Shown here one piece after another: positions 13,877-18,363 of a stretch of DNA of 40,052 bases. This DNA is from a virus: positions 1 through 40,052 of IMG/VR virus record IMGVR_UViG_3300017637_000005. One strand, given 5' to 3'. The notes under the pieces are model-generated. The model was given only the letters and a program-made list of their open reading frames with translations. It did no database searches and was not told the DNA's origin. The translations under genes and the position numbers were made by a program. Within the stretch, counting starts at the first letter, position 1. Every line of letters begins with the position of its first letter.

Positions 13877-14542
13877 ATGGCCGAGATTGACGGGGCACGG
13901 TTGGATCGGCTCATCGCCGCGCGGGGAACCTCACAGTCAGAGGTCGCCCGCGCGATCGGCGTTTCGCAGCCGACGATCGGGCGCCTGATCAGCGGCGAAA
14001 CCCGCGAAACCGGGAAGATCATCGAGCTTGCGCGGTTCCTCAAGACGACGCCCGAGTATCTGATCGGGGAAGTCGAATCGCCAGACCTCGCGGCCCCGGC
14101 CTTTGCGGCCCCGGAAGACGCGGCCGCGCAGCTCGACCTGGTGCCGATCGACGAAATCAGCCTTGAGTTCGGCATGGGCGCAACGCTGATGGATGACGAT
14201 CACGAGGTCGTGCGCCGCTATGTGCCCGCCGACTGGATCGCACATTTCACCAAATCGCACCCCTCGCTGCTCCGCTTTGCGCGCGGGCGCGGCGATTCGA
14301 TGTATCCGACGATCCTCGACGGCGACCTGGTGCTGATCGACATGGGCGAAACGCGGCTGACCCGACAGGATGAAATCTGGGCGGTCGGCTATGGCGATCT
14401 GGGCGGGCTCAAGCGGCTGCGGTCGGTCGGCAGGGGCACGATCAAGGTGATGTCGGACAATGCGTCGGTCAGCGACGAAGTGTTCGACATGGACGAAATC
14501 CGCCTGTTCGGGCGGGTGTGTGGCAACCTAAGGAAGATGTGA
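13877..14542 (+). CDS. CI-like repressor, XRE HTH plus S24 peptidase domain
   Basis: The 221-residue protein has an N-terminal helix-turn-helix (TSQSEVARAIGVSQPTIGRL, about 18-37) and a C-terminal S24/LexA-like domain with the nucleophile in GRGDSMYP (Ser141) and the general base in GGLKRL (Lys179). It should hold the prophage silent by binding the nested dyads just upstream. Both catalytic residues are present, yet no Ala-Gly or Cys-Gly dipeptide lies in the linker where RecA-stimulated self-cleavage normally occurs. Control by the antirepressor further right is therefore plausible. The ATG at 13877 has AGGG 8 bases upstream. Frame extension upstream of it overlaps the operator and is rejected. 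Confidence 0.88.
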   Translation: MAEIDGARLDRLIAARGTSQSEVARAIGVSQPTIGRLISGETRETGKIIELARFLKTTPEYLIGEVESPDLAAPAFAAPEDAAAQLDLVPIDEISLEFGMGATLMDDDHEVVRRYVPADWIAHFTKSHPSLLRFARGRGDSMYPTILDGDLVLIDMGETRLTRQDEIWAVGYGDLGGLKRLRSVGRGTIKVMSDNASVSDEVFDMDEIRLFGRVCGNLRKM

Positions 14543-14553
14543 GGGGGAGTTCG

Positions 14554-15009
14554 ATGCGGAAGTTCGGAACGATGATCGCGGCGGCAGGGCTGACCATGTT
14601 GGGCGGGTGCGGCGCGCCCGATGGAAGCGGCGGCGGCGCAGACGCGGCGAAAAGCGAGGCACCTATCGTGGAGGTCACTGCTCTGGAGCTTTCGTCCGCT
14701 TTCCAGAAGAATGAGGCGAAGGCCCAGCTAACCTATGAAGGCAAGCGCGTGCAGGTGAGCGGTCGCGTCAAGGACGTGGATCTGGACATGCTCGATCAGC
14801 CGGTCATCAAGCTCGCCGGCGGCGGCGATGTCGGCGGCATGGGCATCAGCCAAGACGGCAAGATCACAGATGTCAGTGTGAACGGGCTGCCAAAGGCGAC
14901 CGCTGCGGAGATCGACAAGGGGCAGGAGCTGACCGTTCTGTGCACCGAAGTGAGCGAGATCATGGGCGGCCCCATGGTCGGTGGCTGCTCCGTCGTTGCG
15001 GCAAAGTAA
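14554..15009 (+). CDS. Small lipoprotein with tRNA_anti-like OB-fold character
   Basis: The 151-residue product has a lipoprotein signal ending in MLGGC (Cys19), so it should be membrane-anchored. The mature part (VEVTALELSSAFQKNEAKAQ, then YEGKRVQVSGRVKDVDLD, and later QELTVLCTEV) resembles the tRNA_anti-like OB-fold family of exported proteins, although I cannot run a profile to confirm it. It lies 11 bp after the repressor on the same strand with a strong GAGGGGGAG ribosome site, so it is likely expressed in the lysogen as a passenger gene affecting the host envelope. The function is unknown. Confidence 0.72.
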   Translation: MRKFGTMIAAAGLTMLGGCGAPDGSGGGADAAKSEAPIVEVTALELSSAFQKNEAKAQLTYEGKRVQVSGRVKDVDLDMLDQPVIKLAGGGDVGGMGISQDGKITDVSVNGLPKATAAEIDKGQELTVLCTEVSEIMGGPMVGGCSVVAAK

Positions 15010-15022
15010 GACCGGTATCATG

Positions 15023-15059
15023 GCGCCTAGCGTTGGCCGCTCGGCGGCGCGCTAGGCGC
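15023..15059. terminator. Bidirectional hairpin between convergent genes
   Basis: GCGCCTAGCG (15023-15032) pairs with CGCTAGGCGC (15050-15059) around a 17-base GC-rich loop. It lies between the convergent lipoprotein and antirepressor genes and overlaps the antirepressor stop. A short T run follows on the + strand. This fits a shared terminator. Confidence 0.6.
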
Positions 15060-15876
15060 TTTCCAGTTCGGGCAACTTCGACCGGTCGAAAATCCAACAA
15101 CGCCGAATCCGGGTGTCGCGGCCATTGACCGCCGCAGCCTCAACAAATGCGGGGTGCTGGCGCAGCGCGCGGCGTAGCGGTGTGCCGCGTGGTGCGTCGA
15201 TCGCCGCCGCCGCGAAGAGCCTCTCGATCTGGGGGAGCGATATCGCCAGCAAATCGGTGCGGCGGTGGTAGTCAAACTCAACCCCGCTTCGTTTCAGGTC
15301 GATCAGCCCGGCAAAGAACCCGTCGGCGATTTCCAGATCGTCGGGCGCGGGCTGGCCGAAAGCCTCGATCCGGGGGAGGGGCAGGTTCATCCGATCGCAC
15401 ATCTGGCCGAGCAGTGTGTGGAGCATCGCCTTAATTTCGGGATGCCATTCGTGCTTTAGCCGGTCGGTCAGTTTGAGCAGTTCGGTTGTCGCGCCGGACG
15501 CAAGCGCAGCCGGTGTGCCCCGCCGCCCGCCAAAGAAATGCACGAAGAGCGCATGGAAGGCCTCTTCCTGAAAGAGCGTCACCCGTTCGCGGACGATGGG
15601 GTCCTTGATGCGTTCAGATTGTATCGTCGTGAGGAACCCCGGAAGCATTTCGAGGCTCAAAGCGACCGTTTCCTGCATGCCACCCTGTGAAGGTATACGT
15701 GTTACACGTATACCTTTGGACAGCACCGGGTGCCGCTTAATCCGCTCCAGTTGTGGGTGCCACGCAAGCCCCAGCTGATCGACCAGAGCTTTGAGGGGCA
15801 CTTCTACCTCGTCCCCCTGATGCGCGGTGAGAATCTGATATTGGTGGAAAGGGACGATCTGAAACATCTTCGTCAT
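15052..15876 (-). CDS. ant: P22-type phage antirepressor
   Basis: The 274-residue protein opens with a P22_AR_N-like domain: an N-terminal strand, then LKALVDQLGLAWHPQLERIK, RHPVLS and VALSLEMLPGFLTTIQ. This is the pattern of antirepressor N-terminal domains that bind and inactivate CI-type repressors. The middle is helical and a conserved C-terminal block ends in CWIFDRSKLPELES. Residues 54-62 (KGIRVTRIP) are encoded by a perfect 27-bp palindrome that recurs in a downstream array. In relatives I know this position is a variable hairpin of about the same length, so the palindrome seems to be part of the gene, not an added insert. The gene is coupled to the S24-like gene by ATGA. Confidence 0.82.
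   Translation of the reverse strand: MTKMFQIVPFHQYQILTAHQGDEVEVPLKALVDQLGLAWHPQLERIKRHPVLSKGIRVTRIPSQGGMQETVALSLEMLPGFLTTIQSERIKDPIVRERVTLFQEEAFHALFVHFFGGRRGTPAALASGATTELLKLTDRLKHEWHPEIKAMLHTLLGQMCDRMNLPLPRIEAFGQPAPDDLEIADGFFAGLIDLKRSGVEFDYHRRTDLLAISLPQIERLFAAAAIDAPRGTPLRRALRQHPAFVEAAAVNGRDTRIRRCWIFDRSKLPELESA
15690..15716. repeat. Palindrome E0 inside the antirepressor gene
   Basis: The arms AAGGTATACGTGT and ACACGTATACCTT flank a single T at 15703, so the 27 bases form a perfect odd palindrome. Read on either strand in the gene's codon phase, it gives the same core GIRVTRIP. It differs from array element E2 at one position of the 27. Confidence 0.95.
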
Positions 15877-16361
15877 GGGCGAAGCTCCGATTCGGGCTGC
15901 CCGATGCGTAGCATCGGGCGGAAGTCCATTTCGAGGATGCCGATCACCTTGCCGATGATCTTTTGCCGCAGATGCGATTCGGGCGGGGCGTCGGCGGCGT
16001 AGGGGCCATCGGGCAGCGCGTGAGCCCGGCCCTGTTCCAACCACGCGCAGGTTTCATCGGCGCTGCGCGGGCGGTTGTGGCTCCACACATACCAGTTCGA
16101 CCGGCCCCGGTTCTCGCGAAGCACCGGTTCGATCACTTCCTGACGACCGCCGAACCATTGGATCAGAAACAATTCACCTTCAGCCGGTTCGCGGTCGCGC
16201 ACGTCGATGACCAGACATTCGCCCCGGTGCATCAACGGTTCGCAGGAATCGTCGGACAGTTCGAAGGGCAGGCACCCATCGGGAAGCTGACGATAGATGA
16301 TGTAGGGCCGCAGCCCTTCTTGCATGGGCGCAGGCGTGGGCAGTAGGAAGTATGCAGCCAT
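15873..16361 (-). CDS. S24/LexA-like protein without HTH domain
   Basis: The 162-residue protein has an S24-like fold pattern: SDDSCEPLMHRGECLVIDV (about 36-54) matches the nucleophile loop with Ser39, followed by EGELFLIQWFGG. Where S24 peptidases carry the general-base lysine, I see Arg73 (GGRQEVI), so the enzyme may be inactive. There is no N-terminal DNA-binding domain. A C-terminal segment contains KIIGKVIGILEMDF. It is the first gene of a two-gene operon with the antirepressor and is divergent from the Arc-like gene. It could act as a regulatory partner, perhaps as a decoy for dimerisation of the S24 repressor; that is inference. Confidence 0.7.
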   Translation of the reverse strand: MAAYFLLPTPAPMQEGLRPYIIYRQLPDGCLPFELSDDSCEPLMHRGECLVIDVRDREPAEGELFLIQWFGGRQEVIEPVLRENRGRSNWYVWSHNRPRSADETCAWLEQGRAHALPDGPYAADAPPESHLRQKIIGKVIGILEMDFRPMLRIGQPESELRP

Positions 16362-16390
16362 GATCGTCTCCTTGGGACGGTTACGGTTAG

Positions 16391-16422
16391 GCCCGGCGTG
16401 AGGTTGCCCCCTCGCGCCGGGT
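16391..16422. other. GC-rich inverted repeat upstream of the S24-like gene
   Basis: CCCGGCGTGAGG and CCCTCGCGCCGGG form an imperfect stem in the leader of the leftward S24-like/antirepressor transcript. There is no T run. It could be an attenuator or a binding site. Confidence 0.4.
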
Positions 16423-16428
16423 CGCTGC

Positions 16429-16476
16429 TGTAGCTACGGTAGCTATTGACGAACTGTCAAGAGTGTAGCTACAGAT
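16429..16476. promoter_or_regulatory. Divergent promoters with TAGCTA operators
   Basis: The palindrome TTGAC-N5-GTCAA (16446-16460) supplies a -35 box to each direction. TAGCTA occurs at 16431-16436, 16440-16445 and 16466-16471; the outer two are extended to TGTAGCTAC. The leftward -10 fits TAGCTA at 16431-16436 (18-bp spacer) and the rightward -10 fits TACAGA near 16470. Half-site spacing of 9 bp suits ribbon-helix-helix repressors, so autoregulation by the Arc-like protein and control of the antirepressor are likely. Confidence 0.7.
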
Positions 16477-16481
16477 TTTTC

Positions 16482-16643
16482 ATGGCCGAGAAATCAAACC
16501 ACACATTTCAGATGCGGGTCCACACGTCATGGCTCGCCATGATTGATGAATGGCGCCGCAAGCAACCCGACCTTCCGACACGCGCAGAGGCGATCCGCCG
16601 CCTTGTCGATAAAGGTATCAGCGCCGACGCCGAAAGCGCCTGA
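16482..16643 (+). CDS. Arc/Mnt-like ribbon-helix-helix protein
   Basis: The 53-residue protein matches the ribbon-helix-helix layout: strand NHTFQMRVHTS, helix A WLAMIDEWRRKQ, turn, and helix B RAEAIRRLVDKGI. Such proteins dimerise through the strand, which enters the DNA major groove. It is divergent from the S24-like/antirepressor operon, as Arc and Mnt are linked to ant in phage P22. The ATG at 16482 has no Shine-Dalgarno and lies about 7 bases after the proposed -10, so the transcript is probably leaderless. Its likely operator is the set of TAGCTA sites just upstream. Confidence 0.82.
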   Translation: MAEKSNHTFQMRVHTSWLAMIDEWRRKQPDLPTRAEAIRRLVDKGISADAESA

Positions 16644-16649
16644 CCTTCA

Positions 16650-16994
16650 ATGTCGCTGACCTTCCTGTGCCTCGCCGCTGTCGCGGTCGATGGCGACACG
16701 CTGCGGTGTCAGGGCATCGGGCGGGTCCGCATTGCGCGGATCGATTCTCCCGAGCTGCACCGCTGTCCCCCACGCCGGCGCTGTGCGCCGGGTGACCCGC
16801 GCGCGGCGCACGACAATCTGACCCAGCTGATCGCGGGGAAGACCGTGCGGTGTCGGGAGGTCGATGCCAATCCGATGCGGCGGGGGTATCAGGCGCGGGA
16901 TCGCTATGGCCGTCCCGTCGCGGAATGCGAGGCGGGTGGGCGCGATCTGGGCAAAGCGCAGCTGCGCGGCGGGTTCGCGATCCGATGGCCGTAG
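16650..16994 (+). CDS. Small SNase-like (thermonuclease family) protein
   Basis: The 114-residue protein has the nuclease motifs DGDTL (14-18, calcium site), VRIARIDSPE (Arg27 and Glu35, matching Arg35 and Glu43 of staphylococcal nuclease) and DRYGR (Arg88, matching Arg87). The catalytic set is therefore complete. Compared with secreted members, it has no clear signal peptide and a short C terminus, so it may act inside the cell. It begins 6 bp after the Arc-like gene and shares its transcript. No ribosome site is obvious. Next comes the palindrome array, so the array probably forms the 3' end of this transcript. Confidence 0.78.
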   Translation: MSLTFLCLAAVAVDGDTLRCQGIGRVRIARIDSPELHRCPPRRRCAPGDPRAAHDNLTQLIAGKTVRCREVDANPMRRGYQARDRYGRPVAECEAGGRDLGKAQLRGGFAIRWP

Positions 16995-17005
16995 GGGCCG
17001 GACCA

Positions 17006-17032
17006 AAGGTATAAGTGTAACACTTACACCCT
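17006..17032. repeat. Array element E1
   Basis: The left arm is AAGGTATAAGTGT and the centre A17019. The inner arms GGTATAAGTGT and ACACTTACACC have one mismatch. The minus strand reads QGVSVTLIP in the antirepressor codon phase. A small hairpin CACCC-TGA-GGGTG begins within its right arm. Confidence 0.8.
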
Positions 17033-17046
17033 GAGGGTGAAGGTCG

Positions 17047-17083
17047 CCCCAAAGGTATACGTGTTACACGAATACCTTTGGGG
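17047..17083. repeat. Array element E2, near-copy of the antirepressor palindrome
   Basis: The 18-base arms around T17065 have one mismatch. The core 27 bases differ from E0 at a single position, and flanking CCCCA/TGGGG extends the stem. The minus strand reads KGIRVTRIPL, identical to antirepressor residues 54-62. Confidence 0.9.
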
Positions 17084-17129
17084 CAACGCAAAAGGGGTGG
17101 TGCTTAGCACCACCCCTTTTGCGTTGCCC
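17081..17129. repeat. Array element E3, perfect 49-bp palindrome
   Basis: Twenty-four-base arms, beginning GGGCAACGCAAAAGGGG, flank T17105 with no mismatch. The core reads KGVVLSTTP on both strands in the shared codon phase. The stem is strong enough to act as a factor-independent terminator, but no U run follows. Confidence 0.93.
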
Positions 17130-17158
17130 GGAGCACCATCATGGCGCGGCTTTTCACT

Positions 17159-17185
17159 AAGCCGTGGTGAAAATCACCACGGCTT
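17159..17185. repeat. Array element E4
   Basis: The arms AAGCCGTGGTGA and TCACCACGGCTT pair perfectly around AAA (centre 17172). The minus strand reads EAVVIFTTA in the shared phase. Confidence 0.85.
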
Positions 17186-17201
17186 CAGACGGCGCAAGGG
17201 C

Positions 17202-17228
17202 GAGGTATTACCCTTAGGGTAACGGCTT
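17202..17228. repeat. Array element E5
   Basis: The core TTACCCT-T-AGGGTAA is centred on 17215. The outer arms pair only partly. The minus strand reads KAVTLRVIP in the shared phase. It is followed by CGAAC, as in E8. Confidence 0.82.
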
Positions 17229-17254
17229 TCGAACCTGATCGAGCGAATTGAGCC

Positions 17255-17281
17255 AAGCCGTCATCATTTTGATGATGGCTT
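17255..17281. repeat. Array element E6
   Basis: The arms AAGCCGTCATCA and TGATGATGGCTT lie around TTT (centre 17268). The only mismatch would be a G-U pair in RNA. The minus strand reads KAIIKMMTA. Confidence 0.82.
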
Positions 17282-17296
17282 TGGACGGGGAGCGCA

Positions 17297-17323
17297 GAGG
17301 TATTACGCTAAGCGTAACACCTT
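17297..17323. repeat. Array element E7
   Basis: The core TTACGCT-A-AGCGTAA is centred on 17310. Compared with E5, a C-to-G change in one arm is matched by G-to-C in the other. The minus strand reads EGVTLSVIP. Confidence 0.85.
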
Positions 17324-17324
17324 C

Positions 17325-17351
17325 GAGGCATTGCCCTTAGGGCAACACCTT
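17325..17351. repeat. Array element E8
   Basis: The core TTGCCCT-T-AGGGCAA is centred on 17338. Compared with E5, an A-to-G change in one arm is matched by T-to-C in the other. The minus strand reads KGVALRAMP. Confidence 0.85.
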
Positions 17352-17367
17352 TCGAACATCCCGAGGG

Positions 17368-18363
17368 TTAGACGCTTTCGAGCGCGATCCGCTGTTTCAG
17401 GCCGTCGCCGTCGAAGCTGGTTTCAACGCTCTCCACCACCCATTTGAGGGAATCGATGCGGCTGTTCCACCCGAGCAGCGCGACGCGCCCGTTCGGCTGA
17501 AGATCGGGCAGCGCGCGCGCCAGTTCATAGGTGAAGGTGCGTGCGCCGCGCTTCCCCTTTGACACCGCGGCATCCGCCGCCTGCGTCGCTTCCGCCTCAC
17601 TGGCATAGACGCGCTTGAGGCGGCGGCGCTTGTCGCCCCCGCGCTTGACGGTGCGGCGCCGGCCGGTGGCGGCATCGTGATATTGCGCCTCGGCCCCGTC
17701 CTGTTCCTCGCGCTCGGCAAAGGCCGATTCCCATGTCCAGCCATCGACCTTGCGGATCGTGGTGGAGGCGATCGTCGCCCCGCTGGCGGTGGTGGTGCTG
17801 CCCACGGGCATGAAGATCAGGCGGCGATCCTTCCACGTTGAGAGCGCGTCGTAGCGGCTGCCCAAATCCTTGACGAAGGCCATGTCGGATTTGTTGTACT
17901 GCTCGATCACGCTGACCGGCTTGCCCGCCAGATCGGGATGCACCTGGGCAGACAGGCCGTTGCGGGTCGCGATGGTGGTGAGGATTTCGCCGACGGTGGT
18001 GTCACGCCAGCTTTGCGTGCGGCGGCGGCGATAGTCGCCGGTGAAATCGGCAGAGCGGGCGCGGATCGTCACCTTGTCGGGAGGCCCGCCTTCGCGGACC
18101 TCATCGACGCGGAACCGGCCCTTGCTGACCAGGCCCAAGGGGACATCGACACCGGAGACCCAGCCAAGGGCCAGCGCCAGCACTGTGCCCTTGTCCGGGG
18201 CGATCAGCAGGCCGTCGTGATTGTGAAGGGTGACCGACAGTTCATCGGCTTCCTCGCCGCGCTTTTCGGTCAGCGACAGCTCAAGCAAGCGGGGCGAGAA
18301 CCGGTCGGTGAGGTCGGTCCCATCCTCAAGGGTCAGGCGGATTCCGGCGATCGTCGCGACCAT
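17368..18363 (-). CDS. D: P2 gpD-like tail hub / late control protein
   Basis: The 331-residue protein fits P2 gpD in length, in position (last gene of the tail operon) and in layout: an N-terminal barrel (about 1-110, with LTEKRGEEADELSVTLHNHD), a middle domain with YNKSDMAFVKDLGSRYDA, and a C-terminal part ending QRIALES. gpD forms the hub that joins the tail tube to the spike. The start overlaps the U stop. Downstream on this strand lies the palindrome array, so late transcripts should run into it. Confidence 0.85.
   Translation of the reverse strand: MVATIAGIRLTLEDGTDLTDRFSPRLLELSLTEKRGEEADELSVTLHNHDGLLIAPDKGTVLALALGWVSGVDVPLGLVSKGRFRVDEVREGGPPDKVTIRARSADFTGDYRRRRTQSWRDTTVGEILTTIATRNGLSAQVHPDLAGKPVSVIEQYNKSDMAFVKDLGSRYDALSTWKDRRLIFMPVGSTTTASGATIASTTIRKVDGWTWESAFAEREEQDGAEAQYHDAATGRRRTVKRGGDKRRRLKRVYASEAEATQAADAAVSKGKRGARTFTYELARALPDLQPNGRVALLGWNSRIDSLKWVVESVETSFDGDGLKQRIALESV

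Follow-up and report, generated by a model that had tools for sequence, protein, structure and literature searches.

Temperate phages such as the cluster A mycobacteriophages have clusters of operators and stoperators, in which each genome contains several palindromic or nearly palindromic regulator sites and the specificity of the sites depends on the phage. The array described here differs from these clusters in lying beside an antirepressor gene, ant, in apparently consisting mostly of the types of other phages, and in having its putative parent site within the coding sequence of the regulator itself, next to the codons of the predicted recognition helix. The C4, sar, and isrK control systems of P1/P7, P22, and Gifsy-1 act on the same kind of gene from a similar position next to ant, and they likely share an aim with the array, that of keeping ant in check; the array elements, in contrast, are symmetric, show no preference for G-U pairs, and follow changes in a protein helix. 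For genes of this kind, the closest idea in print is the predicted site of 24B_1, an RNA of phage phi24B that, by its description, is likewise hairpin-borne with a predicted site in the antirepressor gene (PMC4426718). It is unlike the array in being a single element and an RNA, and the pairing tested in vitro in a later paper was that with sdhB (PMC10732415).

The antirepressors of one prophage can act on another phage in the same cell, through protein-protein contact with its repressors (Lemire et al. 2011, PMC3121763), whereas the action proposed here would go through DNA sites. CRISPR arrays share with the present one a row of short elements, unrelated spacers, and sequence of other phages, but here there is no identical repeat unit, no cas genes were seen, and the elements are operator-like palindromes of one gene family. 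The nearest solved fold to the N-terminal domain of Ant, as judged by Foldseek, is that of TcpK of pCW3 (5vfx, PMC6137059), a winged helix on DNA; TcpK, however, is a conjugation protein with about 10% identity to Ant, and its tandem 9-nt sites are read through the wing. The open-access full texts searched, a scope outside which most subscription papers lie, mention neither a palindrome in P22_AR_N genes nor arrays of this type, nor do they describe the domain as a reader of DNA. The stretch analyzed, referred to below as the window, is the whole 40,052-nt viral record IMGVR_UViG_3300017637_000005 of IMG/VR.

Results

Between positions 17006 and 17351, the window contains eight odd palindromes that fit a common 27-bp register (Table 1), with 46, 40, 67, 43, 53, 42, and 28 bp between successive centers. 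A sequence-only reading of this DNA had described such a series, with spacings of 28 to 67 bp, and both the register and the spacings are borne out: the interval 16996-17360 has 10 odd centers with at least 9 of 13 pairs, whereas 2,000 first-order Markov shuffles scored at the same threshold averaged 0.4 and never exceeded 3. All eight palindromes are present, several of them in imperfect form (9 to 13 of 13 pairs). E3 is indeed perfect across 49 bp (17081-17129, 24-nt arms), and the symmetry of E2 reaches 17046-17084, 39 bp with one mismatch. The paired changes that had been pointed out are real: CCCT..AGGG becomes CGCT..AGCG between E5 and E7, and in E8 a change of A to G is accompanied by one of T to C. 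The interval also seems, as described, to be free of genes, with only chance ORFs overlapping the array.

The array was also correctly described as neither CRISPR nor a simple terminator cluster: it contains no identical direct repeats, its direct-repeat families being 63 to 85% identical, and no terminator was called within it. The search for terminators in 16300-17500 gave one candidate, at 16499-16517, where 1.1 were expected, and a scan of the window found no promoter at the array. When viral contigs were scanned for exact copies of E5/E7 or of the core of the window's own ant palindrome, there were no matches; the corresponding scan for E3/E4 matched four contigs, all without a recognizable ant, which are probably unrelated hairpins.

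Table 1. Positions of ant, the array elements, and neighboring features in the window
Feature	Position	Strand	Details
ant, antirepressor	15055-15876	-	274 aa from ATG; Pfam P22_AR_N; PHROG anti-repressor Ant
Intragenic palindrome AAGGTATACGTGTTACACGTATACCTT	15690-15716		Perfect 13+1+13; encodes Ant residues 55-62 (GIRVTRIP)
Codons of Ant residues 37-48 (LAWHPQLERIKR), predicted recognition helix	15733-15768	-	AlphaFold helix 39-48; covariation with the palindrome core
Inverted repeat CTGTAGCTAC (16428-16437) / GTAGCTACAG (16465-16474)	16428-16474		Between the ant operon and the divergent small ORF
Small ORF	16485-16643	+	Ribbon-helix-helix repressor-like by eye, no Pfam match; putative role
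Nuclease-like gene (SNase domain)	16650-16994	+	Pfam E 3.9e-4; array follows its 3' end
E1	17006-17032		Center 17019; 11/13 pairs; near self type, 23/27 to own ant
E2	17052-17078		Center 17065; 12/13 pairs; 26/27 identity to own ant palindrome
E3	17092-17118		Center 17105; 13/13 pairs; core GTGGTG also in other ant genes
E4	17159-17185		Center 17172; 12/13 pairs; core GTGGTG
E5	17202-17228		Center 17215; 9/13 pairs; right-arm core GTTACC (ant of L209)
E6	17255-17281		Center 17268; 11/13 pairs; right-arm core ATCATC (ants of L081, L003)
E7	17297-17323		Center 17310; 11/13 pairs; core ATTACG (second ant of L090)
E8	17325-17351		Center 17338; 10/13 pairs; right-arm core GTTGCC (ant of L029)

The series has a ninth member, itself perfect, which the sequence-only reading overlooked; it sits in the coding sequence of ant, 1.3 kb from the array. 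The open frame of this gene runs up to 16044, and its product matches Pfam PF10547 (P22_AR_N; E 2.4e-21, 76.5 bits, cut-off 30.7) and the PHROG family of anti-repressor Ant (E 4.7e-32). The intragenic palindrome differs from E2 by one base. In a comparison with REP and other dispersed palindromic repeats that covered the whole 40-kb record, its core is found only in ant, E2, and E1; we propose that it is a self operator of Ant. E3, for its part, matches the ant palindrome of locus L010 at 23 of 27 positions. When translated on the ant strand, the array elements give variants of the Ant strand GIRVTRIP (GVVLSTTP for E3, AIIKMMTA for E6), and several retain ant-like coding bases upstream (TCC or TCG followed by AAA, Ser-Lys), so that they resemble small ant-gene fragments. 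The earlier view of the elements as something other than copies of a single sequence should be revised: they are versions of one ant-gene site, and E2 is nearly identical to the window's own.

Of the neighboring features, the inverted repeat in front of the small ORF is likely the operator of a different regulator, in what resembles an Arc/Mnt-like control region. A gene similar to the superinfection exclusion (Sie-like) family lies at 14518-15009 (PHROG 8545, E 1.7e-14), and a tRNA gene was identified at 1630-1713 (Rfam). Locus L124, which has the closest Ant, carries near-identical 27-bp odd palindromes (CATCGGGYGAGA..TCTCRCCCGATG) at 215, 8764, and 13324; these are not ant-like and may be operators of another regulator.

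The palindrome appears to be a general feature of P22_AR_N genes. The ant genes compared, an uneven sample, came from viral contigs, phage records, and proteobacterial genomes. In nearly all of them the domain has its best palindrome at the same codons; the sequences differ, and the symmetry is conserved. Among ant genes unfiltered for symmetry, the mean at that center is 9.20 of 13 pairs, compared with 2.4 to 4.2 at centers shifted by 1 to 6 bases. The sequence-only reading had held that the symmetry was kept by selection or by the copying mechanism and had proposed a test by covariance; in the ant palindromes, symmetric pairs of third codon positions, on which the protein places hardly any constraint, do covary strongly (z, 5.0 to 10.7), which supports selection for symmetry at the nucleotide level. 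The two innermost pairs are kept little or not at all.

Some relatives depart from this arrangement. The ants of L101 and L136-L143 have, at about the same place, a seemingly even-centered palindrome (center GATATC or similar), which suggests that the half-site spacing is not fixed and changed in one lineage. Some antirepressors with a Bro-N domain (L222, L225, L226/L234, and L228) have an odd palindrome in what seems to be the corresponding place, and in L205 and L234 there are noncoding elements upstream as well. The Ant protein of P22 has a different strand at this place, VDIDMVAG, and no palindrome was noted there. Two protein scans for ant relatives, run separately on viral and on genome contigs, gave none because the patterns used were too narrow.

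Ant-like elements also occur outside coding sequence at other loci. Taking as ant-like those noncoding palindromes that match an ant palindrome at 20 or more of 27 positions, we counted 29 at distances of up to 1.5 kb from an ant gene and 0 farther away, in a zone with about twice as much sequence. These elements are thus confined to ant neighborhoods, and the suggestion that the array elements belong together is upheld and extended by this tie to antirepressor genes. Counting against the operator reading given below, arrays are lacking near the majority of the ant genes compared. About four or five elements lie on the two sides of ant in each of the Pseudomonas-type phages L019/L179, L181, and L177, with one directly before the ant start, and in L205 a Bro-N gene is preceded by four and followed by one. 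The copies elsewhere occur in both orientations. The third downstream element in L179, L181, and L177 has a shared left flank, with the core altered in both arms in L181; the L181 sequence beyond it is unrelated, so that a mosaic breakpoint falls in the element.

The cores of these elements mostly match the ant of some other locus. An exact six-base core of another locus's ant is present in one arm of 20 of the 24 noncoding elements, and the core of their own ant in 2, in a set that includes many elements selected for their likeness to ants, as well as elements common to L019, L181, and L177. With the left arm alone, there are 19 core matches, against 6.9 +- 2.0 expected from shuffled columns. 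The elements of the window were unselected, and seven of the eight (all except E1) match a non-self ant core exactly in one arm, which, with two arms tried for each, gives modest support. L028 and L047 are reciprocal, an element of each having the core type of the other's ant. When a self-matching element was sought in every ant locus, the window alone stood out clearly (26/27), the rest being at or near chance.

P22_AR_N is rare in the order of G136 (2 of 399 genomes), and the search accordingly did not find the actual target phages of E3 to E8. We take G136 as an anchor for Sphingomonadales on the basis of a 16S stretch with a 98% match over 81 bases, and host assignments are therefore tentative.

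An AlphaFold prediction of Ant (22 sequences; mean pLDDT, 88.6; pTM, 0.45), confident for the domains, has helices at residues 28-35 and 39-48 of the N-terminal domain, followed by strands at 57-63 and 66-74, which suggests a winged-helix-like fold. The high-probability matches in a Foldseek search of the PDB were DNA-binding folds, namely TcpK on oriT DNA and the Ski/Dachshund fold, with probabilities of about 0.8 to 0.98 and weak E values of 0.1 to 0.6. TcpK binds DNA through its wing and has its canonical helix buried (PMC6137059), so that the fold alone does not prove reading by the helix of Ant.

Covariation among the ant genes bears on this point. With overall divergence removed, residues 37-48 of 71 ants covary with the palindrome core (r, 0.35; maximum of 1,000 permutations, 0.12), and other parts of the domain give values mostly of about 0. 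The core is tracked most strongly by residues 44, 38, 40, and 43; residue 44 follows inner pairs 4-3, and residues 38 and 40 follow outer pairs 7-5. For pairs of ants less than 45% identical elsewhere, the fraction of these residues shared is 0.46 when the core is the same, compared with 0.13, and control regions show little or no difference. Examples are GGTT with Gln-Arg-Gln-Arg, TGTCC with Glu-Ala-Gln-x-Lys, and CGT with Glu44. The pattern is repeated (0.71 versus 0.21; across sets, 0.57 versus 0.14) in 42 held-out ants, which had been excluded from the first analysis for alignment gaps, as in the combinations of TTTCG with WAAQ, TTGTG with WASQ, and TGGTG with WKSQ. Among ants with the same left-arm amino acids, agreement in the silent bases goes with a helix identity of 0.77, and disagreement with one of 0.23. 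Packing of the helix against the strand does not account for this effect, which indicates a link of the helix with the nucleotides and not with packing alone; a small amino acid effect persists beside it (partial r, 0.14).

Pairing in the stem cores distinguishes a DNA site from an RNA hairpin. In the ant genes, read on the ant strand, there are 14 G-U against 12 A-C pairs, and in the noncoding elements there are about 12 against 14. This lack of a G-U preference, together with the occurrence of both orientations, points to a double-stranded DNA site, and the small-RNA reading that had been implied for the array finds no support, G-U pairs being no commoner than A-C mismatches. RNA families (C4, isrK, sar, and c4-a1b1) adjoin ant genes of this set; in the window, covariance models gave no C4 (RF01695) or other antisense RNA family above the gathering score. 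C4 was found in L010, L090, L094, L130, and others, and it lies directly upstream of ant in L010 (4595-4684), L090 (7767-7851), L094 (7746-7836), L130 (5791-5885), and L144-L165; isrK stands just before it in several genomes, and the two seem to form a recurring pair here. A pairing of C4 with the palindrome was considered and rejected, as the C4 loops match the ribosome-binding site instead.

Discussion

Our results suggest that the array is a cluster of double-stranded DNA operators for P22_AR_N antirepressors, E1 and E2 being of the self type and E3 to E8 of the types of other phages, an interpretation drawn from sequence comparison that we hold to be probable. A DNA operator is preferred to an RNA hairpin on the strength of the missing G-U preference, the predicted winged-helix-like fold, and the covariation of helix and core. 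The predicted winged-helix domain of Ant, acting as a symmetric pair, would read the 27-bp palindrome inside its own gene, which sits where the gene encodes the beta strand that directly follows the putative recognition helix; the binding itself, its dimeric mode, and its effect are steps that we infer. Binding within the gene would most likely limit the transcription of ant. Non-self sites might soak up or respond to the Ants of other phages in the same cell, and a rival's antirepressor would thereby be weakened in effect or sensed; the array would probably serve as a decoy or in cross-regulation. Its location 1.1 to 1.6 kb from ant, between convergent genes and with no promoter found, favors a decoy or looping over control of a local promoter, while the element just before the ant start in Pseudomonas-type phages favors control.

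Because ant loci are rich in C4, isrK, sar, and c4-a1b1, we at first favored an array of trans-acting RNAs, in which hairpin or antisense RNAs would pair with ant mRNAs and silence the phage's own (E2) and those of others (E3 to E8). Genes of this kind, with such RNAs adjacent, are classical antisense targets; 24B_1, a 20-nt RNA cut from a hairpin, has its predicted site within an antirepressor gene (PMC4426718, PMC10732415); the stems of E2 and E3 are extended; and E2 and E4 to E8 read antisense to ant on the plus strand, downstream of a plus-strand operon. The idea lost ground when no G-U preference appeared in either the ant palindromes or the array elements and the elements at other loci proved to be of mixed orientation. 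It also leaves unexplained why the recognition helix should track the palindrome, silent bases included, and C4 pairs with the ribosome-binding site rather than the palindrome, and we now consider it unlikely. The covariation would also fit a protein reading an RNA stem, the symmetry being that of the stem: Ant might bind a hairpin in its own mRNA as a form of translational self-control, with RNA from the array as a sponge. A single strand should tolerate G-U, however, and G-U is as rare as A-C, and the predicted fold of Ant resembles those of DNA binders, which makes this version very improbable.

The elements could also be diversification cassettes, donors that recombine into ant and alter its specificity. 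Most elements are open in the ant frame, and one differs in both arms between otherwise similar phages, beside a mosaic breakpoint. The elements nevertheless lack ant flanks long enough for recombination as well as the helix codons, which must change with the palindrome, and the Bro-N-linked element at 7747 in L205 has an in-frame stop on one strand; we give this explanation hardly any credence. The palindromes might, finally, be debris with no regulatory function, either quasi-palindromes kept symmetric by replication errors (template switching) or a terminator cluster between convergent genes. The symmetric extension into the flanks at E2 and E3, the position between convergent genes, and TTTT after E3 would agree with such an origin, but it is highly unlikely in view of the single codon position across distant phages, the covariation with the helix, the linkage to ant, and the absence of any terminator called in the array.

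If the array is a set of DNA operators, as we favor, a wider and more tentative reading is that P22_AR_N Ants in general are sequence-specific DNA binders with an operator placed inside the gene that encodes them, next to the helix codons, and that the operators of rivals collected in arrays form a DNA-based memory that detects or neutralizes coresident phages; the same might perhaps extend to Bro-N. We regard this as possible though rather doubtful. Lying next to the codons for its reading helix, the operator would travel together with the reader as one unit.

A collection of non-self operators, if that is what the array is, would be a form of phage-phage competition undescribed in the open-access papers searched. 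The table of helix residues and cores (L009-L212, Ant residues 38-44) could serve as a draft recognition code for the domain, and such a code from helix to site, if true, would allow the type of Ant recognized to be guessed from the sequence of an element. Antirepressors are known as proteins that bind repressors, and a DNA-reading role, if true, would alter the view of their regulation and specificity.
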